Positions 12,851 to 57,944 of a DNA stretch of 64,000 nt are shown here, in pieces (positions within the stretch are counted from its first letter, which is position 1; every line of letters starts with the position of its first letter). A program made the translations under genes and the position numbers. A model generated the notes under the pieces. It was not told the DNA's origin and ran no database searches. It saw nothing but the letters and a program-made list of their open reading frames with translations. Source of the DNA: a virus; IMG/VR virus record IMGVR_UViG_3300023175_001370, positions 1 to 64,000 of that record. One strand, written 5' to 3'.

Positions 12851-15058
12851 ATGAGATTATTTGATTTAGTTGAAAATGAAAACACAAACCTGGTTGTGAT
12901 TTACCCTGGACGTTTTCACCCTTTCCATATAGGACATGGTAAAGTATTTAAGTACCTAAAAGAAAAATTTAAAGGTGCACAGGTATACATTGCATCATCT
13001 GGTAAAACAGATGGACACAAATCTCCTTTTGCTTTTGACGAAAAGAAAAAAATGATGATGCTTGCTGGTGTTGATCCTAACGCAATTGTACAAACCAAAG
13101 TTCCTTATGTTGCTACAGAGATAACAGATAGATTTGATCCTGACTCAACAGTTGTACTATATGCGGTATCAGAAAAAGATATGTCAGAAGACCCACGATT
13201 TGATTTTCCACAGAACGGTCCTAAGCTAAAGAAGAATGGTGAACCTGCGCACGTTCAAAAATGGAACGGTACGGCAGACGCAAAACCATTACGTGACCAC
13301 TCATACATTGTCACAGTTCCTACATTTACTTTTAAGATACGTGGAGAAGACGTTAATAGTGCGACACAGATTAGAAACATGATTGCGAAAGCAGATGAAA
13401 CGAAGTTAATTCAAATATTACAAGATTTATATGGACGTGATGATATACCATCAAACGTTGTTGATATATTCAAAAGAAAACTTCAACCTTCAACTATGAC
13501 TGAAAGTTGGGAAGAAGAGCCACTATACGAAGCATTATGGGAAGCAGAGTTAAGACATGAATTTTTAATTGAACGTAAACTTACAGGTGGTGAAAAACGT
13601 TCAAAAGAAACTCACTTCAAAAAACTAAAAAAACATAAGAGTGATTTTGTTGATAGATATGGTGACGAAGCCGAAAGTATTATGCATGCTATCGCAACCA
13701 AACGTGCCAAAAATGAAGACGTAGACACTATTGGAAAATCTACTATTAATAAAAGCACAAGAGATGAGTTAAATAAAATGATAGGCATGTCAGGAAAAAC
13801 ATCCAACGATAATGAGGATGATATTGATCCATTTAAACTAGCAGGTGCTGCGGCCGCAGCAGGTATTCCAGCAAGTATGATTGGTAGAAAAATTGGCAAA
13901 GATGTTGTACGAGATATAAAAGGAGATGGGCCTGAAGATAGAAGAGCCCGTGAAAGATTTAAAAAAGATCAGGAAAAGAAAGCTAAAAGAACCCCAAAAT
14001 TTAATAAAAATGCTAACACCAGTACTAAACCTTCAAGTGTTCCTGGAAAAACCTTACCGGGAGTAACAAGAGGTGCAGGTGGTGGTGGAGCAGGTGTTAG
14101 ACCAAATAGAATCGCTGGTGGTGGGAGAAGAATTGAACCAAAACTACGTGGTAATCCTTTTAATATGTTTAACGAAGAAGCAGATTCATTAAATGAATGG
14201 CAAGATGCATGGAATACTTTAAGAAATAGTATACCTGATATAGATAAATTCATGACGGATCATGGATATAATCCAAATTCTACTGCGTCAATAAAACGTT
14301 TTATACAGAAAAATCCAAACTATATTGATATTAACGGAAAAACATTAGCAAAAGGTGCTAACCTGCCTGACTTTTTGTTTAAATCTATTGCATCAAAAAA
14401 AGTTGGTGACGCTGGAGCGGATGCATTAATCAAAGCCCGTGAAATGTTAAAATCACAACACCCTGAGGCGTGGAAACAATTCACTCAAGGTAATCCTCAA
14501 GCTGCACTAAAAGCATTGGGGTTAAGTGAAGCTGTAGCAAAAGCAATACTAGAACATATTGAGCGTGGTGTACCATTCAGAGAGTGTATCTTCCGTCCAG
14601 GTAGTAAATCATTTAGAGAATTCTATCGTGGTCTACGTAATCTAAATTCTGTCGGTCTATTAGAAATGGATTGGGAAGATGAAGAATTATTGGAAACAGA
14701 TATCGGCGAACTAGTAAAAATTGAAGGTGAAATTGTTCCATTAGATGTACCATTTTTAATGGAAGAAGAACTTGACGAAGCAGAATATAATGGAAAGCAA
14801 GTAAAACTAAACTCGCCAAAGCGTGGGGGACCTAAGAAGTTTTATGTGTATGTTAAGAACCCAAAAACAGGCAGAGTTAAAAAAGTAAGTTGGGGCGATA
14901 AAGGTCTTAGCGTCAAAGCAAAGAACCCAGGTGCAGTTAAAAGTTTTGTTGCTAGACATAAATGTAAGCAAAAGAATGATAAAACAAAAGCAGGTTATTG
15001 GGCATGTAGAACACCACGTTATAAATCATTAGGTGTTAAAGGTGGCACATGGTGGTAA
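12851..15058 (+). CDS. Nucleotidyltransferase fused to a large virion-type region
   Basis: A 735-residue protein. Residues about 15-200 form a cytidylyltransferase-like (HxGH) nucleotidyltransferase: GRFHPFHIGHGK gives HIGH, and SATQIRNMI matches the ISSTxIR loop. Members include NMN, pantetheine-phosphate and glycerol-phosphate (cyt)adenylyltransferases. The middle (about 240-620) is low-complexity and helical, Lys/Ala/Gly rich. The last 90 residues are a Lys-rich module with RHKCKQKNDKTKAGYWACRTPRY, a probable zinc or structural knuckle. The N-terminus MRLFDLVE|NEN carries an L-x-E site like T4 capsid-targeting sequences, so the enzyme may be packaged in the head. It is a tandem fusion far longer than free enzymes of the family (about 160-340). 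Confidence 0.6.
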   Translation: MRLFDLVENENTNLVVIYPGRFHPFHIGHGKVFKYLKEKFKGAQVYIASSGKTDGHKSPFAFDEKKKMMMLAGVDPNAIVQTKVPYVATEITDRFDPDSTVVLYAVSEKDMSEDPRFDFPQNGPKLKKNGEPAHVQKWNGTADAKPLRDHSYIVTVPTFTFKIRGEDVNSATQIRNMIAKADETKLIQILQDLYGRDDIPSNVVDIFKRKLQPSTMTESWEEEPLYEALWEAELRHEFLIERKLTGGEKRSKETHFKKLKKHKSDFVDRYGDEAESIMHAIATKRAKNEDVDTIGKSTINKSTRDELNKMIGMSGKTSNDNEDDIDPFKLAGAAAAAGIPASMIGRKIGKDVVRDIKGDGPEDRRARERFKKDQEKKAKRTPKFNKNANTSTKPSSVPGKTLPGVTRGAGGGGAGVRPNRIAGGGRRIEPKLRGNPFNMFNEEADSLNEWQDAWNTLRNSIPDIDKFMTDHGYNPNSTASIKRFIQKNPNYIDINGKTLAKGANLPDFLFKSIASKKVGDAGADALIKAREMLKSQHPEAWKQFTQGNPQAALKALGLSEAVAKAILEHIERGVPFRECIFRPGSKSFREFYRGLRNLNSVGLLEMDWEDEELLETDIGELVKIEGEIVPLDVPFLMEEELDEAEYNGKQVKLNSPKRGGPKKFYVYVKNPKTGRVKKVSWGDKGLSVKAKNPGAVKSFVARHKCKQKNDKTKAGYWACRTPRYKSLGVKGGTWW

Positions 15059-15321
15059 AACCTTATAGTGAAGTTGTCAATGGTAATGTAAGAATAAGAA
15101 CTTTTGACAGTAACATAGATAGCGACGAATTAGTTTGGCACAGAGATAGAATGACGAGGACTGTAACAGTATTAGAAAGTGATAACTGGAAGTTTCAAAT
15201 GGATGATGAACTACCAAGATGTTTAAACATAGGAGATGTTCTTAACATACCAAAAGAAACATATCACAGAGTAATCGCAGGAAAAGGAAAACTTATAGTA
15301 AGGATTGAAGAACATGGCTGA
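15049..15321 (+). CDS. Small cupin-like protein
   Basis: A 90-residue protein whose pattern fits a compact single-domain cupin: VWHRDRMTRTV, a KFQMDDELP turn, GDVLNIPKETYHRVIAG and a final LIVRIEE strand. The IPKETYHRV motif matches the second cupin box (P-x-G/E-x-x-H). Metal ligands would be His30 and His77, fewer than the usual four. It overlaps the end of the nucleotidyltransferase fusion by 10 nt. Possibly a virion accessory protein. Confidence 0.5.
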   Translation: MVVKPYSEVVNGNVRIRTFDSNIDSDELVWHRDRMTRTVTVLESDNWKFQMDDELPRCLNIGDVLNIPKETYHRVIAGKGKLIVRIEEHG

Positions 15322-16171
15322 GAATTATGAAGACTATTTACACCCGAATTTAGACCCAAACTTAATGGGTGTACAAAATGCGATGGAATATAATACAGCA
15401 GGATTACCTGCGTTGCGAGTTATTGCTAACTTAAACGGTTGGGGTATTCAGGTATCAAATGGTGAGATTGAGGGTGTAGGTTATATTGAAAAATTTGGTA
15501 TGAATGTTGATGTTGACGCTAATAAAGAAACTATTTGGGACGCAGGTGGGATTTATCAATATTTAACAACTGCAGAAACAGTTTTTGTCACAAGTACATT
15601 GGGAACAGATTCAGCAACAGGTACTGGTGCAAGAACAGTTGAAATACAAGGACTTGATGCGGATTATAACTTAGTTTATGAAACACTTACAGTTGGTGGT
15701 GGCGCTGGTACCCAAGAGTTTTTGAGAATTTTTCGTGTTAAAGTATTAACAGCAGGTAGTAGCGGAGTTAATGAAGGTACTGTTAGCATTACAAGCAGTG
15801 GCACAAGTACAGTGTTGGCACAAATTGGTATCGATGGATCAGGCGGTAATGCCGCAGGACGTGGGCAAACATTTATGTCTTTATATACGGTTCCTGCAGG
15901 AAAAACTGCATATCTAACACAGTGGACAGTTGGTGCTGGTAAGCAAAACACAGATGCAGTGGCTTTTATGATGGCAAGGACATTTGATAATGGTTGGAAT
16001 AGCAAAGATATTATTACGGTAAGTGCAACTACATATGCAAAAGATTATAAAATCCCATTAAAATTTGATGAAAAAACAGATATAGAAATTCGTGCATATA
16101 GTACAACTAATAATAGTTTAGTAAGCAGTACATTTAATCTTATACTAATTGATAATCCAATAGAGGAATAA
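15314..16171 (+). CDS. Virion structural protein (beta-rich)
   Basis: A 285-residue Gly/Thr/Ser-rich protein with features of phage capsid-surface proteins: NGWGIQVSNGEIEGVGYIEKFG near the N-terminus, then repeated beta strands with TVPAGKTAYLTQWTVGAG and a final STFNLILIDNPIEE. The ATG at 15314 (MAENYED) overlaps the upstream stop and is preferred over 15305. No catalytic motif. A head-decoration or tail-tube-associated role is inferred from its place in the cluster of capsid-targeted proteins. Confidence 0.55.
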   Translation: MAENYEDYLHPNLDPNLMGVQNAMEYNTAGLPALRVIANLNGWGIQVSNGEIEGVGYIEKFGMNVDVDANKETIWDAGGIYQYLTTAETVFVTSTLGTDSATGTGARTVEIQGLDADYNLVYETLTVGGGAGTQEFLRIFRVKVLTAGSSGVNEGTVSITSSGTSTVLAQIGIDGSGGNAAGRGQTFMSLYTVPAGKTAYLTQWTVGAGKQNTDAVAFMMARTFDNGWNSKDIITVSATTYAKDYKIPLKFDEKTDIEIRAYSTTNNSLVSSTFNLILIDNPIEE

Positions 16172-16175
16172 TAAA

Positions 16176-17690
16176 ATGAAGATAACTGAGTTTGAAAAGG
16201 GAGGCGTGACACAGCAACAACTAGACGCATTAGAAAGCGTACTAGATAAAGTGTTTGCCAAACTTGGTATTGATGTAGAATTTACAAGACATTTCTTGGA
16301 TAGAGTAAATGATGAACGCAATGTTCGTCCTATTAGTATCAAAGAACTTGGCATGCTATTCAAAAAAGAGTTTATCAAATGGGGTAAACCTATCGCTCAA
16401 ATGGGACCTGATGCACAAGCGGTCATGAAAGACTTAGAAACTGATATCAATATTCCTTTTGTACTGCAGTGGAATGATAGAAAAGGTGAACTAGAACTTA
16501 TTGCTAAAACTGTTATGCGTAAGAAAAATTTTAAAACATCTAATAAAGAATTCCCAGTGGAATCTCAGTTAAATGAAAATCCATTAGTTGCGGTAGCAAT
16601 GAGAATATTAGCAAAAAAAGGAATTAAGATTGCTAAACATGTCATTCAAGGCATTATCAAAAATTCACCGCCCGGTGCTAGCCCAGAACAAATAGCAGCA
16701 ACTATTGCTAAAGGTGTCGCAGCAGGTGGCGCCGCTACCGCAATAGCAAAGAAAACTAAAGATACGTTAGATAATAAAGAAATAGCACAAGAACAACAAT
16801 CTATAGGCTCTAAGATTAACTTCCCAGGAATGCAGGGCAAAACAGTGACGCCTACTGCCACACAAGCTCCAAAGCCGCAACCTAAAAAACCCAGAAATAG
16901 ATTTGATAAGATTGTAAACTGGGCAAAAGGACTATTTGATGAAGATTTAAATGAAGACTTAGGTTCTATACCTCCACTACCAGAACTTATTATTATGGCC
17001 GTGGCAGCACAAACTACTGTTGCTTCATTGAAATCTATGTTTAAAGTTGCTATCAAAACAGGTAAAGGACTAAAGTCTCTGCGTAAGCTACAAAAAGCAG
17101 CACTACGTGGTGGTGAAAAAGCAGCAGACTTTGTTCTTGGGGAGGCGACACGTGAAGAATTACTTTTACAGATAAGAAGCAGACAAGAAAAAGAATTTTA
17201 TAAAGCAGCAATACAAGCGTTACGACATCTAGTAAATACAGATAAATCAAAGCAAAGTATAGGCGGGTATGCTTTTGATATAGCACGTGCTTTTAATGGT
17301 GTTAAAGCAAAAGAGCTAGTAGATATGTACAAAGCACAGTATGAAAGTATACAAGAGTTTGAAGCGAAACAATCTAATCCATTAGTAGTGCTAGATATAG
17401 TTTCTGACAGAAGTGATAACAAGCCATTCCCAGTTAAGTTCTATGATGGTAATACTATTAACGTGAAGCCGAAAGAAGCAAAACGTTTTATGGACAAGTA
17501 TTATAGAATGGAACCAGAACAGCGAGATATTGTACATAAGTATATAAAAACAAAAAAAGGTTTCATGCAGGCCATTAAAAATTTAAATATCACTGAAGGT
17601 TGGAGTAACAAGTACAAAAAGTCAATAGATTGCAATAACCCAAAAGGTTTTTCACAAAAAGCGCATTGTGCTGGAAGAAAGAAGAAGTAA
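16176..17690 (+). CDS. Large head-associated-type protein, MKITE N-terminus
   Basis: A 504-residue protein. The N-terminus MKITE|FEKGG contains an I-x-E site. Residues about 20-120 contain FTRHFLDRVNDERNVRPISIKELG and PFVLQWNDRKGELELIAKT, which I associate with a family recurring in marine T4-like phages. The middle has Ala-rich helices. The C-terminus ends KYKKSIDCNNPKGFSQKAHC, a Cys/His tail that recalls the knuckle at the end of the nucleotidyltransferase fusion. No enzyme motif. Packaging into the prohead is inferred from the N-terminal signal. Confidence 0.55.
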   Translation: MKITEFEKGGVTQQQLDALESVLDKVFAKLGIDVEFTRHFLDRVNDERNVRPISIKELGMLFKKEFIKWGKPIAQMGPDAQAVMKDLETDINIPFVLQWNDRKGELELIAKTVMRKKNFKTSNKEFPVESQLNENPLVAVAMRILAKKGIKIAKHVIQGIIKNSPPGASPEQIAATIAKGVAAGGAATAIAKKTKDTLDNKEIAQEQQSIGSKINFPGMQGKTVTPTATQAPKPQPKKPRNRFDKIVNWAKGLFDEDLNEDLGSIPPLPELIIMAVAAQTTVASLKSMFKVAIKTGKGLKSLRKLQKAALRGGEKAADFVLGEATREELLLQIRSRQEKEFYKAAIQALRHLVNTDKSKQSIGGYAFDIARAFNGVKAKELVDMYKAQYESIQEFEAKQSNPLVVLDIVSDRSDNKPFPVKFYDGNTINVKPKEAKRFMDKYYRMEPEQRDIVHKYIKTKKGFMQAIKNLNITEGWSNKYKKSIDCNNPKGFSQKAHCAGRKKK

Positions 17691-18992
17691 ATGCGTTTCA
17701 GTGAAATAGAAAATATCAACGAAGGATATAAATTACAGTTAGAACGTGATGCTGATATGTATGTTCTACATATTACAGACAACGATACAGGTAAGCGCAC
17801 AGAAGTTCGTGGTAAAAGCGGATACGAAAGCGGCAATTATGATGCCGATGACAAACTACATCAATTACTAGATAAAATTGGCAAAGCATCAAACATTTCA
17901 GACTTAATGAACGGTGAAGTTGTAGGTATCAATCCTAAACACCCAGACGGTGCAAATGCAAAGAAACATACTGACATAGCGTTTAATGAGGATGTTAGTG
18001 TCCCTGAAAATGTTTTTCATATGAAAAACAGATTACTAAAAGTCAAAAAGATAACAGACGCTATGGGCAACCGACCAATAATGTTTAGAAGTTTTGTATA
18101 TGACGCAGAACCTGTTGCAAAAATTATTAAAAAAGTAACCAATGATACCGGCAGAAAAATAAAAACAGGAAGTAATCAAAAACAACAAGAAGTCTTGCAA
18201 AAACTTGGTATTGAAAATCCAACATTTGCAGCCATTGCATCAGGAAAGTATGCAAACGTTAATAGAAACTCTCTTGAAGATATGGAAGTTTCTGGAATGC
18301 AAAATATTTTTATACCATTAAGTAATGAGATGTATTATAGTGACACAATTGAAGACCTGGGAATGGGACGTAGTAAAGGCGGTAGAAATATTTCATTACC
18401 AAGTGACTTTGATGTAGATAAAGCAGTGGCTACCTATAAAAAAGGATGGCCGCCTGCTGGATTTGATAATGAAATAATTGTAGATACCAATGAATATTAT
18501 CTTTTAAATCTGAGAACTTTCTTATTAGAACTAACAAGCCCAGAAATAAAAAGCCAGATTGGCCGTTTAAAAAGCATGTATGGTAAGTCATATGAACGCA
18601 AAGCAGAAGAAAATCATATTAATGATATTTTAAAAGATTTGTTCAAAACAAAAATAACCACATACGGCGATATATCACGCTGGATCGAATCTGTTGCTGT
18701 TCCTTTTGTAGATATGTTAGCAGCCAACAGAGGCGAACCTACAAAGAATACATATACTGATTATGACGATGACGATGATAGTTGGCTCGATTCATTGGAT
18801 GATATTGGCAAACCTGGATTTGCTGAAAACTTTGCTGACTTTACAGCATTCAACGAAGCAGCCGGAGTTGGTCGTGTTGTAAAAGGTGTAAATACAACTG
18901 TTGATGTAGGACCAAATGAAATCATCAAGCAAGTTAAAAAATACGGAAATGATGTCAATAAAGACGGATTCCCAACAAAGCATTTAAGATAA
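17691..18992 (+). CDS. Large head-associated-type protein, INE N-terminus
   Basis: A 433-residue protein starting directly after the previous stop codon. The N-terminus MRFSEIENINE|G has an I-x-E site at residues 9-11, like the T4 gp21 protease site. The body is charged with no recognised domain. A stretch of Asp (DYDDDDDSWLDSLDD) near residues 361-375 precedes a hydrophilic C-terminus. Probably an internal or core head protein; function unknown. Confidence 0.5.
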   Translation: MRFSEIENINEGYKLQLERDADMYVLHITDNDTGKRTEVRGKSGYESGNYDADDKLHQLLDKIGKASNISDLMNGEVVGINPKHPDGANAKKHTDIAFNEDVSVPENVFHMKNRLLKVKKITDAMGNRPIMFRSFVYDAEPVAKIIKKVTNDTGRKIKTGSNQKQQEVLQKLGIENPTFAAIASGKYANVNRNSLEDMEVSGMQNIFIPLSNEMYYSDTIEDLGMGRSKGGRNISLPSDFDVDKAVATYKKGWPPAGFDNEIIVDTNEYYLLNLRTFLLELTSPEIKSQIGRLKSMYGKSYERKAEENHINDILKDLFKTKITTYGDISRWIESVAVPFVDMLAANRGEPTKNTYTDYDDDDDSWLDSLDDIGKPGFAENFADFTAFNEAAGVGRVVKGVNTTVDVGPNEIIKQVKKYGNDVNKDGFPTKHLR

Positions 18993-19015
18993 AACTACAC
19001 ATATTTTACTTAAAT

Positions 19016-19024
19016 GATAAATAC
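19016..19024 (+). promoter_or_regulatory. Late-promoter-like motif GATAAATAC, 4 nt from ATG
   Basis: Exact motif copy ending 4 nt before the ATG at 19029. A T4-type late start would fall at or next to the ATG, implying a leaderless message. Confidence 0.55.
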
Positions 19025-19028
19025 TATT

Positions 19029-19232
19029 ATGAAAATAAACGAGATCATAAATGAAACGTTTGCCGGATCCTTTGCATCGGTTTCTATGCCAATGACACCT
19101 GGTACAAAAAAGTCTGATGCTGAACGTTCAGTATATGGTAGAAAGAAAAAAAATTATAAGATGGGTTATACATCAGATGTAGGTAATCTAGTATATAATA
19201 AACCTGTTAAAAGTAAAATGATTAAAAGATAA
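19029..19232 (+). CDS. Small protein with capsid-targeting-like N-terminus
   Basis: 67 residues: MKINEIINE|TFAGSFASVSMPMTPG, then a basic Lys/Tyr/Arg-rich tail (YGRKKKNYKMGYTSD...KSKMIKR). The I-N-E site at residues 7-9 is like the T4 head-protease consensus. The positive tail suits DNA binding inside the capsid, as in T4 internal proteins. The ATG at 19029 is chosen because an upstream in-frame ATG at 19014 overlaps the promoter motif. Confidence 0.6.
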   Translation: MKINEIINETFAGSFASVSMPMTPGTKKSDAERSVYGRKKKNYKMGYTSDVGNLVYNKPVKSKMIKR

Positions 19233-19243
19233 GGTAGAATAAA

Positions 19244-20914
19244 ATGAAACTGTCACAACTAATCGAATCTTTTGTAATCTCTAATGACGAATTTGAAGAT
19301 TACCTAAATAGAGCAACAGAACAACTAGCACAAGAGTTGTCATCTGGTAAGAACGCACGTGATGCGATACATGACTTATCAGTAGAATTCAGTAACCAAC
19401 ATAACAAAGCATATGATGCTTATGTTCGTATGTCAGACTCACTAACAGCGAGAATGCATACACTAGAACTAGATAGTCCTGCCGATATGATGAACGAGCC
19501 AATGGCAGATATGAGTGTTGCTAATGAACCAGAAATGATGACAGACCCAATGGGTGATATGGAAATGGACACACCAGCAGATAGCGAAATGCCAAGTGAC
19601 AGTGACATGGAAGATTATGCTGCGGTGATGGACAACGAACCAGAAGTAGAAGAATCTGTAAACGAAGCAGAAGAAAGACCATATGTTTGTGTACATGCTA
19701 AAAAGGGTAAGCACGAATGCCACGCTAAAACATCTTATGAAGCAGCTAAGAAAGCAGCTAAAGCGTGGGGGTTAAAATCAACAGCAGGAATTGATGCGCA
19801 CCTAGCAATTGAAGAAGGTCGCATGAGCGATCAAGTCATTCATGATTCAGAAACAATGTCGAAAGAAGAATTTGCTAAAAAACACGGCAAAGAACTAGCA
19901 GACGAAATGTATGAAGGTGCAATGGATGTTGTCAAGGGTGCAGGCAAGAAAATTAAAAAAGCAGGTAAAAAGGTTGGCAAATTCTTTGGTCACGGTGAAC
20001 ACCCAGCATTTGATGAGTTTGAAGGTGTCTTTGATGAGAGCGAAAAACTTGATGCTTCAAAATACCATTGTAAAGATTGTGGATGCCAAATGCATAACTG
20101 TGAGCCAGATTGTGACTGCGAACATGACTCACATGATGAAACAGGTTCATGGTGGCGTGATGAAAATGGTAATGGTGTTCCTGATATGATGGAAGACGGT
20201 GGAAAGCCAGGCACATGGTGTGCTATTTGTGGTGGACACCCATGTCATTGTCCAGATGATGAAATTTCAGAAAGCATGGATGTAATCAATCAAATAGTAG
20301 CAGACAAGCAAGCTGGTAAACTACATGGTATGACAGTTGATATGTTTACAGCATCAGCAATTAAACAAGTTTATGACGCAGTAAATGATGACAACAAAGC
20401 AAAGCTAGACGACCTAATGTCATCTAAAGAAGGTGTTGTTAAAGCAGCAGGTCTTGCTATGAAAATGATGAAAGAAGGAATCAACGAAGAAAAACTTGAT
20501 GAAATTCTTCCAGCGATTGCAGGAATGGCAGCACGTTTAGCGATAGGTGGTGCTGTAAGAGGAGCAATAGGCGGGGCAGCAAAAGGTGTCGGTGGTGTTA
20601 TAAAAAACACTATGACAAAAGGTAAAGACAAATACGCTTATCAGCCACAAGCGGTAGCAAATAAAATGATGACAGATGCGACTAGAATTGAGTTCTCAGA
20701 ATATAACGAGTTCTACAAAGCATTAGACGCAGCAGCAAAAGCAGGCAAAAAAGCAGGTGACAGTATTGAAGTTGGTGGTAAAACTATCAAACTAAAATCA
20801 AACCCAAAACAAATGCATCAACTATCAGATTCAGATATGGATAAGATAGAATTACTAGCACAGCGTTTGAATGAAAAGGGCTGTGGGTCACACAAATCTA
20901 AAAATAAGTATTGA
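19244..20914 (+). CDS. Head-associated-type protein with Met/Asp-rich and Cys/His-rich regions
   Basis: A 556-residue protein. The N-terminus MKLSQLIE|SFV carries an L-x-E site. Residues about 75-130 are strikingly Met/Asp/Glu/Pro rich. Residues about 145-190 hold a CVHAKKGKHECHAKTSYEAAKKA module that I associate with marine phage proteins. Residues about 270-340 contain CKDCGC, HNCEPDCDCEH and CAICGGHPCHC, a dense Cys/His cluster likely to bind zinc or another metal. Residues about 420-455 are Ala/Gly-rich (possibly membrane-active). It ends in a charged domain before the next promoter. Possibly packaged and matured by the head protease. Confidence 0.5.
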   Translation: MKLSQLIESFVISNDEFEDYLNRATEQLAQELSSGKNARDAIHDLSVEFSNQHNKAYDAYVRMSDSLTARMHTLELDSPADMMNEPMADMSVANEPEMMTDPMGDMEMDTPADSEMPSDSDMEDYAAVMDNEPEVEESVNEAEERPYVCVHAKKGKHECHAKTSYEAAKKAAKAWGLKSTAGIDAHLAIEEGRMSDQVIHDSETMSKEEFAKKHGKELADEMYEGAMDVVKGAGKKIKKAGKKVGKFFGHGEHPAFDEFEGVFDESEKLDASKYHCKDCGCQMHNCEPDCDCEHDSHDETGSWWRDENGNGVPDMMEDGGKPGTWCAICGGHPCHCPDDEISESMDVINQIVADKQAGKLHGMTVDMFTASAIKQVYDAVNDDNKAKLDDLMSSKEGVVKAAGLAMKMMKEGINEEKLDEILPAIAGMAARLAIGGAVRGAIGGAAKGVGGVIKNTMTKGKDKYAYQPQAVANKMMTDATRIEFSEYNEFYKALDAAAKAGKKAGDSIEVGGKTIKLKSNPKQMHQLSDSDMDKIELLAQRLNEKGCGSHKSKNKY

Positions 20915-27683: not shown

Positions 27684-27863
27684 ATGACACCCGAAAAAAA
27701 GTTAACTAGATTAGAAACTTTAAGAAAAAAGCACAGAGAACTTGACACTCGAATAAAAAAAGACTATAATCTAAAGTTAGATGTGTCTCAGATGAAATCT
27801 GAAAAACTAAGAATGAAAACTGAAATCTACGCTTTAGAGAGGGAGTTAGGAGTTAATGGGTAG
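27684..27863 (+). CDS. Small DUF465-like helical protein
   Basis: 59 residues: MTPEKKLTRLETLRKKHRELDTRI, then LKLDVSQMKSEKLRMKTEIY. The LxxxHxxLDxxI...SEKLRxKxEI pattern matches DUF465/YdcH, a short antiparallel helical hairpin. TAGGAG lies ahead of the ATG. It overlaps the next gene by 8 nt. Confidence 0.6.
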   Translation: MTPEKKLTRLETLRKKHRELDTRIKKDYNLKLDVSQMKSEKLRMKTEIYALERELGVNG

Positions 27864-28311
27864 TTATTACACTTATATGTTAAATGAAAGTAGAAAAGCA
27901 AACATGGCAGATGATATTTTAAAACAAAAACAAAACGCAAAACGTTGGATTTGGGTGACATTTCAGAAAGAAGGCATTCACAAATATCCAGCAGCACTAG
28001 AAGATCCTGCCCTAGCGACAGGTGACGAATATGATGTGTCTTTTCTAGGATACCCACATCGTCACAAGTTTCATTTTCGTGTAGCAATCAGTGTTGTACA
28101 CAATGACCGTGATATTGAATTCATTCAGTTTCAGCGTTGGTTAGAAAATCTATATAAAGATGATGTTATTCAACTTGATTATAAATCATGTGAAATGATG
28201 TCTGATGATTTGTTTGACCAGATTTCAGCGAAGTATCCAGGACGTGATGTTAAGATTGAAATCTCGGAAGATGGAGAAAACGGAGCATTTATTGAATATG
28301 TCAGTGATTAA
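27856..28311 (+). CDS. QueD-like T-fold protein (tentative)
   Basis: A 151-residue protein with motifs in the order of the 6-pyruvoyl-tetrahydropterin synthase/QueD family. YPHRHKFHFRVAI gives a His-x-His pair for zinc. EFIQFQRWLENLY matches the Gxx-DFxxLK segment. LDYKSCEMMSDDLFDQI resembles the LDHxxLN...PTxENLA region. VKIEISEDGENGAFIEY is a final strand with the catalytic-type Glu. QueD makes carboxytetrahydropterin between FolE and QueE, both encoded nearby. The extra N-terminal 30 residues are unassigned. Some active-site residues cannot be placed with certainty. Confidence 0.45.
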   Translation: MGSYYTYMLNESRKANMADDILKQKQNAKRWIWVTFQKEGIHKYPAALEDPALATGDEYDVSFLGYPHRHKFHFRVAISVVHNDRDIEFIQFQRWLENLYKDDVIQLDYKSCEMMSDDLFDQISAKYPGRDVKIEISEDGENGAFIEYVSD

Positions 28312-47676: not shown

Positions 47677-48302
47677 GTTTTGACTTCTTAACATTAACAG
47701 CATATGGTGATCAAATAGAATTAAAGCCAACTATAGATGGAAAGAAGTTTGTTCGCTGGTCAGAAGACAACTTCAAGTATGTTAGATATAATCCAAGACA
47801 CGATGTTAATCGTTGGGGGTTAAGTATAACTAGTTTAGATGGTGGGCTTAGTGGTGTACCAGATTTAGATAGCCTACATCAATATAATATAGAAAACAAT
47901 ACTAGTCATGCTGAAACAGACTTTGATGTAGTCACACCAGTTTACGAACAATATAAAGAACTTCAACAAATTATTGAACCATGGAAAAATTACATGTTTC
48001 GTTCACATGTAATCAGATTAGGCCCGGGAGGTTTTTTCCCACCACACCGTGACACATATCATTATGATATCAATACTTTTAGATTAATTGTTCCATTACA
48101 CAATTGTAACCCACCAAATGTTTTCTTCAACTTAGAAGAAAACGCAATGCATTGGGAACAGGGACGTATGTACTTTCTTAATACAACTAAAGTACATACC
48201 CTTTTTAATGCTAGTTTTGATAATAGTTACTGGATTGTTTTTAACATAAAATGTAATAAAGATTCGGTAAACGCTGTTTTGAGAAACTTAAAACAAAATT
48301 AG
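47673..48302 (+). CDS. Aspartyl/asparaginyl hydroxylase-like 2OG oxygenase
   Basis: A 209-residue protein with FPPHRDT (His125, Asp127), RLIVPLHNC and TTKVHTLFN (His175), the HxD...H pattern of Fe(II)/2-oxoglutarate oxygenases of the aspartyl hydroxylase-like type. ATGA overlap with thyA upstream. The end meets the first gene of the minus-strand radical-SAM operon tail to tail with 4 nt overlap. Substrate unknown; it may act in the same modification system. Confidence 0.7.
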   Translation: MSFDFLTLTAYGDQIELKPTIDGKKFVRWSEDNFKYVRYNPRHDVNRWGLSITSLDGGLSGVPDLDSLHQYNIENNTSHAETDFDVVTPVYEQYKELQQIIEPWKNYMFRSHVIRLGPGGFFPPHRDTYHYDINTFRLIVPLHNCNPPNVFFNLEENAMHWEQGRMYFLNTTKVHTLFNASFDNSYWIVFNIKCNKDSVNAVLRNLKQN

Positions 48303-49411
48303 ACTTTTCTCTTTGGTATTTTACTATCGGCTGAACTTACACAACTTTTGCTAATACAAGGCATCGGTTTATCAAATAGTTTAAATCCACTCTCAATATA
48401 TCCTAATGGTTGATCTGCACAACTATATGAACGTTTGATGGATCCGTCAGGTTCACGTATAATAATTCCTTGATATCCACTGTTACAACTCCATCCTTCA
48501 AAATTATTAAAGTTAAAAGCATTGAAACGTTCTGCTTGGTCCATATACCACTTCTTACCTTTTGAATCAGTGAACTCTACCTGCATATGCCATGGAACGC
48601 TTTTATCATTTTCACCAATAGCGTACTGTGGCATTTCAAATGTAGGCTTCGGTCTACCCTCCCATTTTCTTTTTACTTCAGTATAAGCCATTTGAGGCAT
48701 ACCATTCCACAAACGCTTCATTTGTTCTTCTGTATATCCTTCAACAACTTTTGACGCTGTTGGGTCACTTTGGGGTTTGAGGGTAACGTTGATTCCTTGC
48801 TCGTGGAAGAAAAGAGCATTTTCCCAATCTTTTTCAAACCACTCGGGAACCATGACCATGTTGATTGTAATCTGTACATCGTGTTCCTGACACAGGATTA
48901 ATTTGTCTGCAAATTCCTGCATCTTCTCCTTCGTGTCTAAATGCTCTGTATGTAAACTTGCTGTAATACTTGCTCTATGAAAAGGTTTCGCTCTTTCCAC
49001 ATAATCCTCAAACCACTTAAGTGGGCGAGAACAATTACTAGTCATATGTATACTAGTATAGTTAGTATTAGGAACATCATCAGCCAAATGGCCCAGTATG
49101 TCCAAGTATCCAGGGTGGAAGGTAGGCTCGCCCCCACTAAGACTAAAGTGAAAACTATTAAATCCATTATCACGTGCTTGCCTCTTTATTTCATCTACTG
49201 TTGCTAGACACAACTCTGTTGGTCTGTGATCTTTTCTGTCACTTCTGGCATAGGGCCAGCAATAACTACATCTATAGTTACAGAAGCGTCCAAGTAACCA
49301 TGACACTGTAAATAAGTCACGGTAAAGTAATGTACGCTGTCCTACTTGTACTAAATCATCAAAAGGTATTTTAGTAAAGTCATACTCACTCCATTTTAAG
49401 TCTTCACTCAT
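48299..49411 (-). CDS. Radical SAM protein, group C
   Basis: A 370-residue radical-SAM protein with FCNYRCSYC (Cys44, 48, 51) and LSGGEPTFHPG. Its C-terminal half contains NSGYQGIIIREPDGSIKRSYSC and PMPCISKSCVSS, a possible SPASM-like auxiliary region. The start at 49411 gives an ATGA overlap with the PP-loop gene upstream. It is the last of nine closely linked minus-strand genes. Product unknown; close in type to peptide- or small-molecule-modifying enzymes. Confidence 0.85.
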   Translation of the reverse strand: MSEDLKWSEYDFTKIPFDDLVQVGQRTLLYRDLFTVSWLLGRFCNYRCSYCWPYARSDRKDHRPTELCLATVDEIKRQARDNGFNSFHFSLSGGEPTFHPGYLDILGHLADDVPNTNYTSIHMTSNCSRPLKWFEDYVERAKPFHRASITASLHTEHLDTKEKMQEFADKLILCQEHDVQITINMVMVPEWFEKDWENALFFHEQGINVTLKPQSDPTASKVVEGYTEEQMKRLWNGMPQMAYTEVKRKWEGRPKPTFEMPQYAIGENDKSVPWHMQVEFTDSKGKKWYMDQAERFNAFNFNNFEGWSCNSGYQGIIIREPDGSIKRSYSCADQPLGYIESGFKLFDKPMPCISKSCVSSADSKIPKRKV

Positions 49412-50034
49412 AGTCGTCCAAATCCCCATTGTCTTTCTTCACACCACCAACAATAACCACACTGTTCTACTGTAGGATCAATGTCTGGTAGATGTTTCAT
49501 CGTGTCATCCATCCATTCACAACTACTAGTTAACTCAAACAAATCTAATAAGTTATGTTTTCTATATAAATTAGCAATACCACGTTTATCTATATTAGCA
49601 AATGGTAATCTAACTTTACCATCAAACAGAATTTCAGGGCGATTACCGTCTGGTGTTCTATCATCTACTGGACCATCTTTACTAATGAAACTCTCAACGA
49701 CATCTGCCGGCGGATTAGCTGTAGCACCATTATAAAAACAACTTATAGTATTACTATCTAATAATGAACTAAGATCCTCGTTCAAGTTTTCTAATGTCTG
49801 ATGTGGTATATGTCTTAATCTATGGTCATAGTTTGTAAATCCAGTAGCATTGCTACAGTACTCTATGATAGAAGGAGTTCTTTTTGCATTACGTTCAAAT
49901 TTATCTGCTGCTGCTACTGTACATATGTACATTTTATTTTTATGTACAGACATCAGTAAGTACAATAGAAGTGCGCTATCTGCACCTCCACTGACTGATA
50001 CTCCTATAGGTTCATTCGGTGTTTCTATAATCAT
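49408..50034 (-). CDS. PP-loop ATPase, QueC/ExsB-like (copy 1)
   Basis: A 208-residue adenine-nucleotide alpha-hydrolase with the PP-loop VSGGADSALLL (about residues 14-24). At the C-terminus QCGYCWWCEERQWGFG gives a Cys-x2-Cys-x2-Cys set like the zinc motif of QueC, with another Cys at SSCEW. QueC turns 7-carboxy-7-deazaguanine into preQ0 by ATP-driven amide/nitrile formation. As queE and dpdA are present, this or the second copy could supply that step, or it may adenylate another substrate. ATGA overlaps on both sides. Confidence 0.7.
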   Translation of the reverse strand: MIIETPNEPIGVSVSGGADSALLLYLLMSVHKNKMYICTVAAADKFERNAKRTPSIIEYCSNATGFTNYDHRLRHIPHQTLENLNEDLSSLLDSNTISCFYNGATANPPADVVESFISKDGPVDDRTPDGNRPEILFDGKVRLPFANIDKRGIANLYRKHNLLDLFELTSSCEWMDDTMKHLPDIDPTVEQCGYCWWCEERQWGFGRL

Positions 50035-50984
50035 AATTCTTCTTTTATAAATGTATCACGCTTCATTTGCTTACATACTTGCATACAGCGAGGAACAGGA
50101 TTATCCCCATCCCAACTATCAATAATGCCCTTCCACACTTTACTGTTTATGGCATCTTCAATACTTGCGTTTTCTAAATTTATCGTATTTTTATAATCGT
50201 TTTCTTCTAGTAGTGTTTCAAATTCATCTTTGTGAATACCTGTTACATTATATTCCATCATTTTACTATTTAAATGACAACAAGGTATTACGTTACCAGT
50301 ATGATTAATAAAGATACGCTTTTGATTTCCATATTTACAACTCACATATGGTATCTCTACTGCGTTATCTATGTCTTCAGTCTTTGCCGCTTTCACACCT
50401 TTAGTGTCTTTACGATGACTAATAATAGTTTTAAAATTTTTAAACCCTTCGTCAGATGCTTTTTGTTTTGCTTCTTCCATCTGATGTTCGTTATGTTCAA
50501 AAACAATGAACTGCCAATTACTTCGACCACCTGCTGCGTTAAATGCTTTATAGTTTTGTTCTACTTTTTTAAAGCTACTGCCTTCTCTATAAACTTCACT
50601 TAGTTCATCACTTCCATCGATTCCCCAGGTAACTGCGTGGCTCTCTGGTAGTAGTCCTGCTAAGTCTGTCCACCATTGTGGGTGACGCAAACTGCCATTA
50701 GTAGCAATGTTAATATGCGCACCCCAATCAGCAAAGTGTCTTATGATATCAAAGAATTGTGGGTGCGATGTGGGTTCGTCTACACTGCCACAAAAATTTA
50801 TAATCTTAATACTTGGAAACATATCTTTTTGAAATCGTTCACGTATTGTATCAATTGTAATATATTCTTTGTTTAATATTTTATCAGCATGTTTAGATAT
50901 AACTCTAAAACATCCTTTACATTGGATGTTACAAAAACTTGTTAGTTCTATATCTAACCATTCTATTGTTTTCATATCCCACAT
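50031..50984 (-). CDS. Radical SAM protein with SPASM-like tail, group B
   Basis: A 317-residue radical-SAM enzyme. FCNIQCKGC (Cys18, 22, 25) lies near the N-terminus, then NFCGSVDEPTSHP in place of the usual GGEP. IPCCHLNSKMM and RCMQVCKQM form a C-terminal auxiliary Cys region. VFEHNEHQMEEAK is shared with the protein at 61003 (VFDHNEHEVEAAK), marking a subfamily. The partial gene at 63453 looks like a third member. Confidence 0.82.
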   Translation of the reverse strand: MWDMKTIEWLDIELTSFCNIQCKGCFRVISKHADKILNKEYITIDTIRERFQKDMFPSIKIINFCGSVDEPTSHPQFFDIIRHFADWGAHINIATNGSLRHPQWWTDLAGLLPESHAVTWGIDGSDELSEVYREGSSFKKVEQNYKAFNAAGGRSNWQFIVFEHNEHQMEEAKQKASDEGFKNFKTIISHRKDTKGVKAAKTEDIDNAVEIPYVSCKYGNQKRIFINHTGNVIPCCHLNSKMMEYNVTGIHKDEFETLLEENDYKNTINLENASIEDAINSKVWKGIIDSWDGDNPVPRCMQVCKQMKRDTFIKEEL

Positions 50985-50996
50985 TATGTATTCTCT

Positions 50997-51626
50997 TTAT
51001 ATTACATATGTTTTTATAGATTTACTATGAGAAACTATATTTCTAAAAACAGTACCATCATCATTTAGTACAGTATTCCACGTATGTTCTTTATTAGGAA
51101 AACCTATACCCAATTGATAGTGTGGTTTTGAAAAAAATTCAATATCTGTTTCGCCTGTAACTTCTGTTACTAATTCAGCAATATCTTTTGAATCAAAACA
51201 TTGATTGTATCCGGTACGGTATCCTAAAGCATTCGCTGCAAATGCTACAGCGCCACTGCTAATTCCCATAGCAGTTCTGGCATTTAATAACCATGGATCA
51301 AAAAATCCTTGAGTGTTTTTCCAATCTCCAATGCCTTCTTTTTTAAGTTCAAACCAAGTAAACACCACAGGTGCATCAACTTGTGCGTTTCTACCTACAG
51401 TTTGTTGATTATCTGGATCTTCTGCCAATTCATAAAATTTACGATTTAAATCTCTATCGGTTGATACTACTAATCTGTAAAATTCATCATTAGATTTAGT
51501 AGGCATGTTTGTTGCTATATCAATTAGCGCATGTACATGTTCTTCTGGAACCGATTGTGTATGATCCCAGTTACGTTGGCAATGTTCAGCGTTTTTGCTT
51601 GCTTCAATTAATTCATTTACATTCAT
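50997..51626 (-). CDS. Nitroreductase-family FMN protein
   Basis: A 209-residue protein with the fold pattern of nitroreductases: N-terminal RNWDHTQSVPEEHVHALIDIATNMPTKSN with the FMN phosphate-type Ser/Lys, a middle with VFTWFELKKEG, ARTAMGISSGAVAFAANALGYRTGYNQCF for the second FMN region, and HYQLGIGFPN at the C-terminal part. It may supply a redox step or reduce a nitro or enone group in the pathway. It sits between two radical-SAM genes with ATGA overlap upstream. Confidence 0.8.
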   Translation of the reverse strand: MNVNELIEASKNAEHCQRNWDHTQSVPEEHVHALIDIATNMPTKSNDEFYRLVVSTDRDLNRKFYELAEDPDNQQTVGRNAQVDAPVVFTWFELKKEGIGDWKNTQGFFDPWLLNARTAMGISSGAVAFAANALGYRTGYNQCFDSKDIAELVTEVTGETDIEFFSKPHYQLGIGFPNKEHTWNTVLNDDGTVFRNIVSHSKSIKTYVI

Positions 51627-52837
51627 TTTGTGTTCTCAAATATACTCATGTCTTCAATGTGTTGAGGTAAAATACTCATTAGTTCATCACGTTCAATACT
51701 CTTAGGTGTACACATACCGCATCCACAATGCTTTCCAGGACCTAGAGGGCATGTTATAATAGGCATTGTTTTATTTTCTATATTAGTACGGAACTCTTCT
51801 ATAATCTTATCGCATTCTGAAATAGATCCAATTGGACCACGTGTACCATCAAAACGTGCTTGACAAGTTTGGTGATGCCAGATAGTATCTGTTTGTTGTT
51901 CAATATGTAAAAAGAACCAGTTGACACTACATTGCCAGTTTCGAAACTTAGCAAACTCTAAAAATGTGCTTTTACTCCAGCAACCATCTGTACCGCAAGT
52001 TTCCATTGTGCGACTACCACAACACGGTCTACCCAACTGTCTAGCAAATTTCTTTTCTTCTGTTTTTTCGACTTGTACAGCACCAGCTTCGTGTCCTACT
52101 TCTGCTTCTGCTTCTTCCGTAGTTTTATCTTTATTAAGTGCTGCATTTTTATCTGCCCAATAATCTTTCATCCACTGTAATTGTTCTTCAGTATATTTAT
52201 GGGCATAACTATTTTTACTATCTTCGTGTTCACCAATCATACGCGGAACGTAACCGATACCATCACGTTCGAAACGCATACATAATTCTTTACATTCATC
52301 CCAATATTCAGCATGGAACATAACATTAATTTTGATTGGGAATCCTTTTTCAGTTAGATAGTAAATGTTATTAACAACTTGTTTTTTTAAACTTGAATGT
52401 GCTTCCGCATGGTAACTGATAGTCATAAAGCCATAGTTTTCGCAAACACTGTCTGCCATCTTTTTACCGAAAGCACCGTTACTAGTAATAGTCAAGTTTA
52501 GTCTATAATCATCTTTATAATTTTCACGCCATGTTTGCTGTAGCCATTCGCCAAACTCTAAAAAGTTTGGATTGTTTGTAGGTTCACCACCAGTAAAATT
52601 GATGTTTATACCTTTATTTTTTTTATAAGGCATCATTAAATTTGCGTAATCAAAAATAAATCTGCCAGTCTTTTTTAAAGTTTCTAAATTAGCATGTGGT
52701 GAAAAGTTATCGTGTCTATGTGGTGGACAATATGTACAGTCATAGTTACAACGTCTACCCACATCCCACGTTACAGTAAGATTGTCACCATCCAGCAAAT
52801 TGATTGCTGTAAAATCAGTGTATTCTAAATCTTTCAT
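51623..52837 (-). CDS. Radical SAM protein with Cys-rich C-terminus, group C
   Basis: A 404-residue protein with RRCNYDCTYC (Cys30, 34, 37) and INFTGGEPTNNP. The C-terminal third has CCGSRTMETCGTDGC, WQCSVNW, CQARFDG and PLGPGKHCGCGMC, about ten cysteines and enough for one or two extra Fe-S clusters. Between the two parts (about residues 235-270) lies a Glu/Lys/Ala-rich charged insertion. It is linked by ATGA overlaps to the nitroreductase and to the next radical-SAM gene. Confidence 0.85.
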   Translation of the reverse strand: MKDLEYTDFTAINLLDGDNLTVTWDVGRRCNYDCTYCPPHRHDNFSPHANLETLKKTGRFIFDYANLMMPYKKNKGININFTGGEPTNNPNFLEFGEWLQQTWRENYKDDYRLNLTITSNGAFGKKMADSVCENYGFMTISYHAEAHSSLKKQVVNNIYYLTEKGFPIKINVMFHAEYWDECKELCMRFERDGIGYVPRMIGEHEDSKNSYAHKYTEEQLQWMKDYWADKNAALNKDKTTEEAEAEVGHEAGAVQVEKTEEKKFARQLGRPCCGSRTMETCGTDGCWSKSTFLEFAKFRNWQCSVNWFFLHIEQQTDTIWHHQTCQARFDGTRGPIGSISECDKIIEEFRTNIENKTMPIITCPLGPGKHCGCGMCTPKSIERDELMSILPQHIEDMSIFENTK

Positions 52838-54285
52838 TTTATTGGAGTCTCCAAAAATTCTATTATGTCCGGATGAATGTAATCATTATAACATTGATTT
52901 CTACTCATGTCAAACACTTTTATTTCTTTTAGCATATTCAATCTATGTTGTTCTGTTATTTCTAAATCTAAGTTTGCTTCTAAGAAAGAAATACCACTTG
53001 TCATATTAGTATGATAATAATCATTATTATGACTATAATTTTCTTTGATATTTTTAAATTTTTCTATCAAGTCTAACTTTATATGTTTAGGTAAAAACTT
53101 AACATTTATGTATTTTTCTTCGGGCCAAAGCAAGTCTAAAAAGAATACAGCAAATTCATTTGATTTTCTACCATACTCTTTATGTAAACTATAATGAAAC
53201 TCTACTAAATCCTCTAAGTAATGTGCATTTAGCACACTAAGAACGACATTGAAACTAAAGTTTTTTATGAATCCATATGGTGTTCTTTTATAATTAATAT
53301 CTTTGACAGATTCTAAAATATTTCTTAAACTCTTTTCTAATACTGAAAATTTCATAGGGTATCTTATATATTCATAATTTTTCCCATATCCATCGATACT
53401 ACAATTTAATACAAGACCGTCAAACTTTTTTAACTTTTCTATATTTTCATTTGAAAACTTAGTAGCATTAGTATGGAACTCTAACATAATATTTTTTGAG
53501 GCTCCAGTTTCAATAGCCGTATCTAAAAACTGTATAAAAGGTTTACTCATAAGAGTTTCACCACCAGTTGCTTTTATATGTTTTAAATTATGTATATTGT
53601 CTAATATATTTTCCCACTGTTTTCCGTCTTTCCAGTTGTATACTTGGTATTCGCCACCTATGTATAATTCTTGATCCGTTCTCTTTTGTTCTTCTAACGA
53701 TAATTCAGTAAGAGAATTTTCTTTTATGATAGTATCTCTGCGTTTCTGCCAATCAAATCCTTGAATACCACTTGTGTCCACATTGTTATCGGCAAAATAT
53801 TGATAGTCTAATCTAAGTTTATTACTTAAACCTGGTTGACACATACGACATCTCAAATTACAGTTTTCACCAAACGCAAAATCAATAGAACTTAATTTTG
53901 GATTTTCTATAAGATCATCTAATTCGTCTTCGTCTGTTATTTTTAATAAGCCAGGAGGCATGCTGTCTAATCTATAACTATAAACGTCATCTCCATTTCC
54001 GTTTTCTTCCATCTTCCAACACGTAGCACATGAAGGATGTCTTCTGTTAGTTAACGCATACTCTCTTATTTCATTCATCGTCTTGCCATGAAATATTTCT
54101 TCTGCGGTAATAGTATCAGGATTAGATATCAGTTCTATGTGGTTATTTAACGGATCAGGCATATCAGGACGTATCGAATTACAGCACGGCGCAGCATTCG
54201 TAATGCCATACTTGTAATGCCAAGTCTTTAACGCCAGTAATGAAAATGGAAACCAGCAAAAAGTATTATCTTTAGTTGGTTTCAC
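52834..54285 (-). CDS. Radical SAM protein with N-terminal Cys module (twitch type)
   Basis: A 483-residue group A protein. Order of motifs: Cys10 (FCWFPF), CysCys34-35, CATCW (Cys86, 89), then the radical-SAM site CNLRCRMC (Cys142, 146, 149), ATGGETL, and SIDGYGKNYEYIRYP. The cysteine module N-terminal to the core differs from classic SPASM proteins, where it follows. The YEYIRYP motif recurs in this group and may bind substrate. Overlaps the upstream PP-loop gene by 14 nt. Confidence 0.85.
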   Translation of the reverse strand: MKPTKDNTFCWFPFSLLALKTWHYKYGITNAAPCCNSIRPDMPDPLNNHIELISNPDTITAEEIFHGKTMNEIREYALTNRRHPSCATCWKMEENGNGDDVYSYRLDSMPPGLLKITDEDELDDLIENPKLSSIDFAFGENCNLRCRMCQPGLSNKLRLDYQYFADNNVDTSGIQGFDWQKRRDTIIKENSLTELSLEEQKRTDQELYIGGEYQVYNWKDGKQWENILDNIHNLKHIKATGGETLMSKPFIQFLDTAIETGASKNIMLEFHTNATKFSNENIEKLKKFDGLVLNCSIDGYGKNYEYIRYPMKFSVLEKSLRNILESVKDINYKRTPYGFIKNFSFNVVLSVLNAHYLEDLVEFHYSLHKEYGRKSNEFAVFFLDLLWPEEKYINVKFLPKHIKLDLIEKFKNIKENYSHNNDYYHTNMTSGISFLEANLDLEITEQHRLNMLKEIKVFDMSRNQCYNDYIHPDIIEFLETPIK

Positions 54286-55150
54286 CTAACTTTTCCTTTG
54301 CTGTTGCTTTTGCCCATTCACGTTCGGCACACCAATAACAGCCTCTATTAGGATCATCTGATAACTGATCGCACGTGGGTAGTGGTGTTTCGCCATGTAC
54401 ATATTTGGTGTGATCCACAAAATCATCTGGGAATATAACTTTATCACCTTCACAACTACGAGTAGTGTTAAGTAAATCTTCCCAACCACGTCTATAATAT
54501 TGTGCCATAATAAAGTCTTTGGTGATAAGTTTCCAAGGATGAACCAGTACTGGATCTCTGAAGGCTGTATCATCTTTTTCAATATATTGTGGACATACGC
54601 TGGTAGTTGATAATCTTTCTTCATTCCATACTCTATCCCATGGACCTTTGGTATGATTTACCACATCAGGTGCTGGATTATTTGTAATAAAATTATATAC
54701 AGCATCTAACTTATATGTGTGAACAGCAAAACTATTGAAACTCTGTGTACATTGCCTATCACCGGTTGTCCCTAGTTTCTCTATAATACCAATAGCGCCT
54801 TCTTCTAACTCTGGTGGAATAAAATTCTGAATACGTTCCATACAAACATTTGGGAACATTTCACGTATTTTATTATATACTTCTACACTAATAGGTGCTG
54901 CCCAAGGTCTATTATTCCAAACTCTTACGTTTGTTAAAAAATAGATTGCTGTGTTGTTTCCATGTTTTTCAATTAACTCTGCTAGTATCGCTGTGCCAAC
55001 AGCACTATCTGCGCCGCCACTAACATTTACACCAACACGTTTCCAAGTCGGATCATACGGATATAATGCCTCGTCTACTTGATGTAATACATCAGTACTG
55101 ATATTGTGCATTTCATAACTTTTATTACTTAAACTAACATCAAATGCCAT
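54272..55150 (-). CDS. PP-loop ATPase, QueC/ExsB-like (copy 2)
   Basis: A 292-residue PP-loop protein: VNVSGGADSAVG (about residues 41-52), TTSVCPQYI in the middle, and the C-terminal TCDQLSDDPNRGCYWCAEREWA with a Cys set like copy 1 (CWWCEERQW). It is about 84 residues longer than copy 1, with extra N-terminal and central segments. The two copies lie in the same operon, separated by four other genes, and the shared C-terminus shows they are related. Candidate substrates are a carboxylic acid or thio/amide step in the radical-SAM pathway. Confidence 0.7.
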   Translation of the reverse strand: MAFDVSLSNKSYEMHNISTDVLHQVDEALYPYDPTWKRVGVNVSGGADSAVGTAILAELIEKHGNNTAIYFLTNVRVWNNRPWAAPISVEVYNKIREMFPNVCMERIQNFIPPELEEGAIGIIEKLGTTGDRQCTQSFNSFAVHTYKLDAVYNFITNNPAPDVVNHTKGPWDRVWNEERLSTTSVCPQYIEKDDTAFRDPVLVHPWKLITKDFIMAQYYRRGWEDLLNTTRSCEGDKVIFPDDFVDHTKYVHGETPLPTCDQLSDDPNRGCYWCAEREWAKATAKEKLGETN

Positions 55151-57904: not shown

Positions 57905-57908
57905 GCTT

Positions 57909-57917: not shown

Positions 57918-57931
57918 TTATTAACTACGAA

Positions 57932-57940: not shown

Positions 57941-57944
57941 CAGT

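Follow-up and report, generated by a model that had tools for sequence, protein, structure and literature searches.

We analysed a window of 64,000 bases (bases 1–64,000 of the incomplete, 90,395-base virus record IMGVR_UViG_3300023175_001370) from a T4-like marine myovirus, with tail proteins at the window's left end and the gp43 DNA polymerase at 21255. Just upstream of gp43 lies a cluster of seven open reading frames (ORFs; 12851–20914), five of whose products begin with a leader-like segment: Met-Lys or Met-Arg followed, by residue 11, by the motif (L/I)xE, which resembles the site at which the T4 head protease gp21 removes capsid-targeting sequences (Table 1). The nearest complete-looking relatives, here called G001 (245,963 bases) and G002 (342,181 bases), both carry gp21 and gp23. 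They are T4-like, and their version of the nucleotidyltransferase encoded by the first cluster gene (protein 1) is approximately 73% identical to that of the window over the first 258 residues; judging by these very long records, the window phage may have a jumbo-size genome.

Table 1 Features of the leader cluster. Positions are those of the window; ↓ marks a predicted cut and h stands for L, I, V, M or F.
Feature	Position	Strand	Remarks
Protein 1, 735 aa	12851–15058	+	PF01467 (E 7.5e-7), phrog_395, phrog_7595
Leader MRLFDLVE, predicted cut after E8	12851–12874	+	54 of 58 nucleotidyltransferase N-termini with site; E8 invariant
Nucleotidyltransferase domain, residues 13–214	12887–13492	+	motifs GRFHPFHIGH, NSATQIR
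Linker with predicted sites LYE↓A, LWE↓A, LIE↓R (residues 227, 231, 241)	13529–13573	+	
C-terminal basic module behind LDE↓AEY	14780–15055	+	phrog_7595; hxE↓AEY at same place in 11 of 14 contexts
Conserved protein, 90 aa, leaderless	15049–15321	+	
Protein, 285 aa, leaderless	15314–16171	+	homologue of virion proteins detected by mass spectrometry
Protein 4, 504 aa	16176–17690	+	
Leader MKITE	16176–16190	+	
C-terminal WSNKYKKSIDC module	17598–17687	+	behind ITE↓G
Protein 5, 433 aa	17691–18992	+	includes GYKLQLERD module
Leader MRFSEIENINE	17691–17723	+	
C-terminal GVNTT module	18858–18989	+	behind FNE↓A
Protein 6, 67 aa, basic	19029–19232	+	
Leader MKINEIINE	19029–19055	+	
Protein 7, 556 aa, acidic	19244–20914	+	
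Leader MKLSQLIE	19244–19267	+	
Cys-rich module	20063–20197	+	behind FDE↓S

All five starts named in the original prediction are present as written. The proteins that it called neighbours are interspersed with two of the seven adjacent ORFs, both lacking the site, and MKINEIINE begins at the second ATG of an ORF listed from 19014. We take this second ATG to be the start in use because all eleven distinct relatives read with the corresponding start, most of them as MKI(N/S/Y/H/T)E. When the seven proteins were shuffled, a mean of 0.51 carried (L/I)xE ending at residues 5–13, and the probability of five or more was 2e-5. Throughout the 90-kb record, M(K/R) together with the site was found in six of 109 ORFs, five of them in the cluster (hypergeometric probability 1.1e-6 for one given seven-gene stretch and about 1e-4 across all stretches). 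Some (L/I)xE occurs close to the N-terminus in 11–14% of ORFs generally, so an isolated site is weak evidence; the weight of the evidence lies in the clustering and, above all, in conservation among relatives.

These relatives were drawn from public viral contigs. In orthologues of each tagged protein, L/I and E were kept and the residue between them varied; such fixed P3 and P1 positions around a free P2 are the pattern expected of a gp21 site. The nucleotidyltransferase N-termini counted for protein 1 were all distinct and spanned window-like, Methylophilales-phage-like and cyanophage groups. Starts included MRLFDL(V/I/F/L)E, MRLYDLFE, MNLNDILE, MNLKDILE, MNLSELTE and MLLRELFE, with L or I at residue 6 and a varying residue 7; the four N-termini without the site comprised one truncated start, two proteins that start at the catalytic domain (in L083 and L086) and one in L100. 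Relatives of protein 4 begin MKINE, MKLNE, MRIDE or MRLDE, with (I/L)xE at residue 5 in nine of nine close relatives, and those of protein 5 keep (I)xE directly ahead of GYKLQLERD. Protein 6 relatives (MKINEIISE, MKISEIISE, MKIYEVIGE, MKIHEILGE, MKITEIVKE) have E5 and E9 in nearly all cases, even where the basic body behind the leader has fallen to approximately 33% identity, and protein 7 relatives read MKLSQL(I/V/T)E, with LxE at residue 8 in all eight listed (LIE, LVE or LTE). No conserved N-terminal site was found in relatives of the 90-residue protein. Elsewhere, many proteins encoded at 12295–28932 of L005 (Flavobacterium phage immuto) share one kind of start (MKKSELVKLIKEEL, MKKSQLRQIIKEAL, FDLKKFLVENKLT), perhaps another leader family.

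The T4 capsid-targeting sequence (CTS) has ten residues and is cut after L/I-X-E; targeting depends on residues 4 and 7 and cleavage on 8 and 10, and a D at position 10 prevents processing while leaving targeting intact (PMC9026906). The predicted window leaders measure 8, 11, 9 and 8 residues in proteins 1, 5, 6 and 7, and 5 in protein 4; at the positions used for targeting in T4, F4 occurs in protein 1 only and a hydrophobic residue 7 in proteins 1, 6 and 7. Isoelectric points are 9.4, 9.7 and 10.1 for proteins 1, 4 and 6 (the last for the ORF from 19014) versus 5.4 and 4.9 for proteins 5 and 7, and, of the cluster members, protein 6 is the most similar in form to the T4 internal proteins. 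Outside the cluster, a 151-residue protein (27856–28311) has a leader-like start, MGSYYTYMLNES, and an RyR-domain protein (PF02026; 5801–6256) starting MKSFKHHI is a possible further leader-bearing protein. We rejected the latter as an orthologue of Melnitz gp27 (MKNFKNHIAEE), the match being confined to the first eight residues.

Protein 1 carries the signature of nicotinamide mononucleotide adenylyltransferases (NMNATs), GRFxPxHxGH and SxTxxR in a Rossmann-like domain, and its catalytic motifs are intact: G20, R21, P24, G28, H29 and S170 were invariant among 23 homologues. In an AlphaFold model (26 sequences; pLDDT 82), the leader was of low confidence, the first strand and the domain began at residue 13, and residues 215–235 were disordered. 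Foldseek placed nicotinate/nicotinamide mononucleotide adenylyltransferases (NadD/NadM) on top (TM 0.44–0.49 by query length), and the best sequence match in the PDB was the NMN adenylyltransferase 2qjt (E 3e-4). The enzyme is predicted to be NMN/NaMN (nicotinamide or nicotinate mononucleotide) adenylyltransferase-like, with cytidylyltransferase or other nucleotidyltransferase activity also possible. Where the original prediction had an active nucleotidyltransferase entering the cell with the DNA, as T4 Alt does, the motifs and the NMNAT-like predicted fold agree with a nucleotidyltransferase; the enzyme is not an ADP-ribosyltransferase like Alt, and we rejected an Alt-type activity because neither Pfam nor PHROGs gave an ADP-ribosyltransferase match for the locus. 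Protein 1 also holds 13 (L/I)xE sites versus 6.2 expected, the strongest enrichment in the record. One of these is inside the catalytic domain; the others are spread over the leader, the linkers and the neighbourhood of the C-terminal module.

Related enzymes are known from cyanophage particles. The T4-GC190 cytidylyltransferase was found by mass spectrometry in S-SM1 virions (Sullivan et al., PMC3037559). Mass spectrometry (MS) detected the nucleotidyltransferase gp154 and its neighbours 155, 156 and 160 in S-CREM2 virions (PMC10665884, Table 3), proteins 136, 139 and 140 in S-SZBM1 virions (PMC9146016, Table 1), of which S-SZBM1_140 is the nucleotidyltransferase, and the NMNAT ORF91 as a virion protein of S-SCSM1 (PMC9602691). 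The detected S-SZBM1 proteins can be mapped to genes by length only. In the S-SCSM1 record, seven of the nine ORFs around the NMNAT are marked as virion proteins (89, 90, 91 itself, 92, 93, 95 and 97). Read from the genomes, the nucleotidyltransferases start MKNFSSFLTE↓A (S-CREM2), MRFRQFIIE↓A (S-SZBM1) and MKSFLQFLKE↓A (S-SCSM1); the T4-GC190 orthologue in S-SM2 opens with MKSFFQFLSE↓A. These starts fit the T4 CTS pattern, matching positions 4 and 7 better than the window leaders do (for example, MKNFSSFLTE), and the window starts appear to fit it in a shorter form. The 285-residue window protein is 55% identical to S-SCSM1 gp31, an annotated virion protein, and 40% identical to the MS-detected S-CREM2 gp176. 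On the protease side, gp22 and gp21 ranked first and second in (L/I)xE enrichment among the 253 proteins of G002, and first and third in S-CREM2; the sites of G002 gp23 lie solely at residues 6, 19 and 42.

We consider it probable that 12851–20914 is a head-cargo locus with cleavable targeting leaders, with packaging, cleavage, injection and substrate all predicted for this phage from comparison with others. Each N-terminal leader would bring its protein into the core of the prohead, a gp21-type protease of the phage would cut after (L/I)xE, and the mature proteins would remain with the DNA and pass into the host on ejection. The adenylyltransferase-like enzyme supplied by protein 1 would probably act on NAD-type metabolism of the host as infection begins, and proteins 4–7 would be further cargo. 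Because leaders are present here and related enzymes occur inside other marine phage particles, an NAD-type enzyme is probably injected by this phage together with its DNA and further cargo. Because hxE↓(G/A/S) precedes most modules of the longer, mosaic cargo proteins, this protease may well make cuts within them too. Prohead packaging with gp21-type cleavage, as the original prediction proposed, has the strongest support of the readings considered, from the MS-detected homologues with T4-like leaders, the conserved L/I-any-E and the presence in G002 of gp21, gp22 and gp23 with a matching pattern of sites.

Several observations weigh against this reading. In related phages the N-terminal site is not required for packaging: some virion proteins of S-CREM2 and S-SCSM1 lack it (92, 93, 95 and 97 in the latter), and across the S-CREM2 genome the motif occurred in 8 of 50 detected versus 10 of 163 other proteins, a weak enrichment (one-sided p 0.034). 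Two cyanophage proteomics papers leave the NMNAT in virions as either cargo or carry-over. Leaderless nucleotidyltransferases occur (L083:847-1551 and L086:1410-2114; MDTVVIYPGRFHPF), and these either stay out of the head or enter it by another route. The window leaders match T4 key positions 4 and 7 only in part, V, which falls outside the T4 L/I rule, is common at P3 of internal junctions, and MKITE, at five residues, is shorter than T4 propeptides (seven or more); it is the weakest case and doubtful as a leader. No Pfam match to gp21 was found on the 90-kb record, and its remaining 26 kb showed no recognisable portal, scaffold or capsid gene, placing gp21, gp22 and gp23 off the record. The mature gp23 body of G002 has zero sites, which is not significant alone (shuffling P 0.12).

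The original prediction overlooked that like sites also lie between internal modules. Several stretches of the window proteins are found again in other proteins behind unrelated upstream sequence, and nearly every copy stands directly after hydrophobic-x-E. For six families derived from window proteins, hxE was at a fixed place in 75 of 85 distinct contexts, against a background of 2.4% per position in the same proteins; the count describes those families, not all modules, and excludes module p4N, which is mostly N-terminal and has no fixed junction. P3 was hydrophobic in 96% of junctions, compared with 17% for P2 and 19% for P4, and P1′ was G, A or S in 72%. The GYK module followed hxE↓(G/S) in 14 of 15 contexts (INE↓G, LSE↓G, VNE↓G, LNE↓G, IQE↓G, MNE↓S), the GVNTT module followed hxE in 19 of 19 (VTE↓A, FNE↓A, VNE↓T, INE↓T) and the Cys-rich module in 17 of 18 (IQE↓G, LDE↓G, FDE↓S and, once, MTKTFKDYLKE↓A). 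GVNTT also forms stand-alone small proteins that begin MKISQIISE↓AGVGK or MKVYEILAE↓DGK. T4 gp22 is cut at a Glu-Ala bond. The LIE↓R of the protein 1 linker is immediately ahead of an LTGGEK module. Two of three additional modules, drawn from MS-confirmed S-SCSM1 proteins, follow the hxE rule as judged by inspecting the listed junctions; the third, ALDPVG, does not. A test of unselected module pairs from this clade gave a shared hxE peak in the first residues, at approximately a third of module starts; this is weaker than in the families followed by hand, and the comparison set still includes unlabelled cargo proteins. The ALDPVG(K/Q)EDGDVNNDG module, found in the cyanophage loci L153–L232, has at least 32 upstream contexts, mostly with KE(G/A) ahead and without a hydrophobic P3.

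The leader itself resembles an N-terminal instance of a general junction. Tentatively, and at close to an even chance, the head cargo of marine T4-like phages may consist of polyproteins: interchangeable modules that each stand behind a gp21-type hxE↓(G/A/S), with one targeting leader, would be taken into the prohead and cut into injected pieces by the head protease. Modules could then, if this is true, be swapped between proteins and still be processed. A serious competitor, which we place somewhat below an even chance, is that the internal junctions are uncleaved, conserved linkers that moved with their modules and that only the N-terminal site is cut; it concerns the polyprotein extension and not packaging. 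The KE(G/A) of the ALDPVG module, the weaker signal in the unselected pairs and the common V at P3, which T4 gp21 is not known to accept, would all fit such linkers. Linkers account less well for a hydrophobic P3 and fixed E at P1 around a free P2 across non-homologous contexts, or for the same modules standing at the N-terminus directly behind a leader, as in the two GVNTT starts and MTKTFKDYLKE↓A above.

For packaging itself, it is unlikely that the proteins enter the head through other features (core affinity, DNA binding or C-terminal sequences) and that the N-terminal hxE motifs are processing sites, not targeting signals. The site-less S-SCSM1 virion proteins, the leaderless window protein encoded from 15314 and the leader-like C-terminus of S-SCSM1 gp93 (RTFKEFLEYIE) are what such a route would produce, but targeting in T4 needs only the ten-residue leader (PMC9026906), leaders are common to unrelated bodies, and some cyanophage leaders match T4 at positions 4, 7, 8 and 10. 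More improbable still is a non-structural role, in host takeover or metabolism, for proteins synthesised after infection, with E-rich N-termini that reflect ordinary helices or common descent and a virion NMNAT that is contamination. The adjoining gp43, the carry-over named as possible by the proteomics authors and the leaderless nucleotidyltransferases might suggest such a role. Against it, four separate preparations yielded the NMNAT, three of them along with its neighbours, and neither helix formation nor simple descent explains a fixed L/I and E around a free middle residue.

Read as head cargo, the window proteins resemble the T4 internal proteins IPI, IPII and IPIII in their short Met-basic leaders ending in (L/I)xE, in the unrelated bodies behind similar leaders and in the small, basic protein 6. 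They differ in that the bodies are non-homologous, the leaders are 5–11 residues long with the consensus MK(L/I)x(E/Q)(L/I)xxE or shorter, compared with ten residues in T4, and proteins 1, 4, 5 and 7 are large and multi-module, two of them acidic; packaging of the window proteins is, moreover, predicted from sequence. As with Alt, which is also cut at its C-terminus, the window enzyme is predicted to be packaged, N-terminally processed and injected, but it is an NMNAT-like nucleotidyltransferase. The cyanophage virion enzymes (T4-GC190, S-CREM2 gp154, S-SZBM1_140 and S-SCSM1 ORF91) share its catalytic motifs, have T4-like leaders and have virion proteins as neighbours, whereas identity to the window domain is approximately 15–20%, the window protein has extra linker and C-terminal modules, and the cyanophage locus lies between gp41 or gp55 and gp61, not just upstream of gp43. 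Polyvalent proteins are likewise large, mosaic phage proteins thought to be injected, which their authors liken to viral polyproteins (Iyer et al. 2017, PMC5512222); their modules differ, and their release is attributed to internal peptidase domains, whereas the candidate here is a head protease acting in trans at hxE junctions. The inner-body and ejection proteins of phiKZ and SPN3US undergo extensive head-protease cleavage after a short motif ending in E and have redundant propeptide sites, but the motif and the proteins are different and no rule of one site per interchangeable module has been reported.

In the open-access literature we found no paper that applies such leaders or cleavages to cyanophages or other marine T4-like phages, the papers being on T4 and giant phages, and no description of hxE sites at module junctions; subscription journals were mostly outside the search. 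A conserved T4-type leader on the NMNAT offers a mechanism for the cargo-or-contamination question left by the two cyanophage studies. It also offers a means of recognising injected cargo by sequence in uncultured marine phages, which are abundant and whose accessory proteins mostly lack names. Should the junctions be cut too, the number of separate pieces that T4-like heads hold for injection would far exceed what gene counts imply.

Other observations concern the related loci and the rest of the window. Leader-like C-termini were seen in two small cargo-locus proteins, the virion protein gp93 of S-SCSM1 (L332:42626-42835) and SSM2_163 of S-SM2 (L120:24405-24878; KTLKEFLENI), possibly for C-terminal targeting or processing as in Alt. 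S-CREM2 has a second virion-protein group, all MS-detected (OR473000 ORFs 12–15; L313, approximately 7.7–13.3 kb), with a nuclease annotated as Cas9 that has LRFASFMAE↓A near its start, ORF13 (MKDLHSFLTE↓QDRKKK), an APH/ChoK-like kinase and ORF15 (MNFSEFNES); a head-packaged Cas9-like nuclease would, if true, be of interest in its own right. The late-promoter motif TATAAATA was uninformative, with 3 matches in the window versus 10 expected and none near the cluster start. From 48299 to 64000, and on to approximately 86 kb of the record, runs a long series of genes mostly on the minus strand; by eye, several of its starts resemble Cys-rich radical-SAM-type or PP-loop-type proteins, which is unusual for a T4-like phage.

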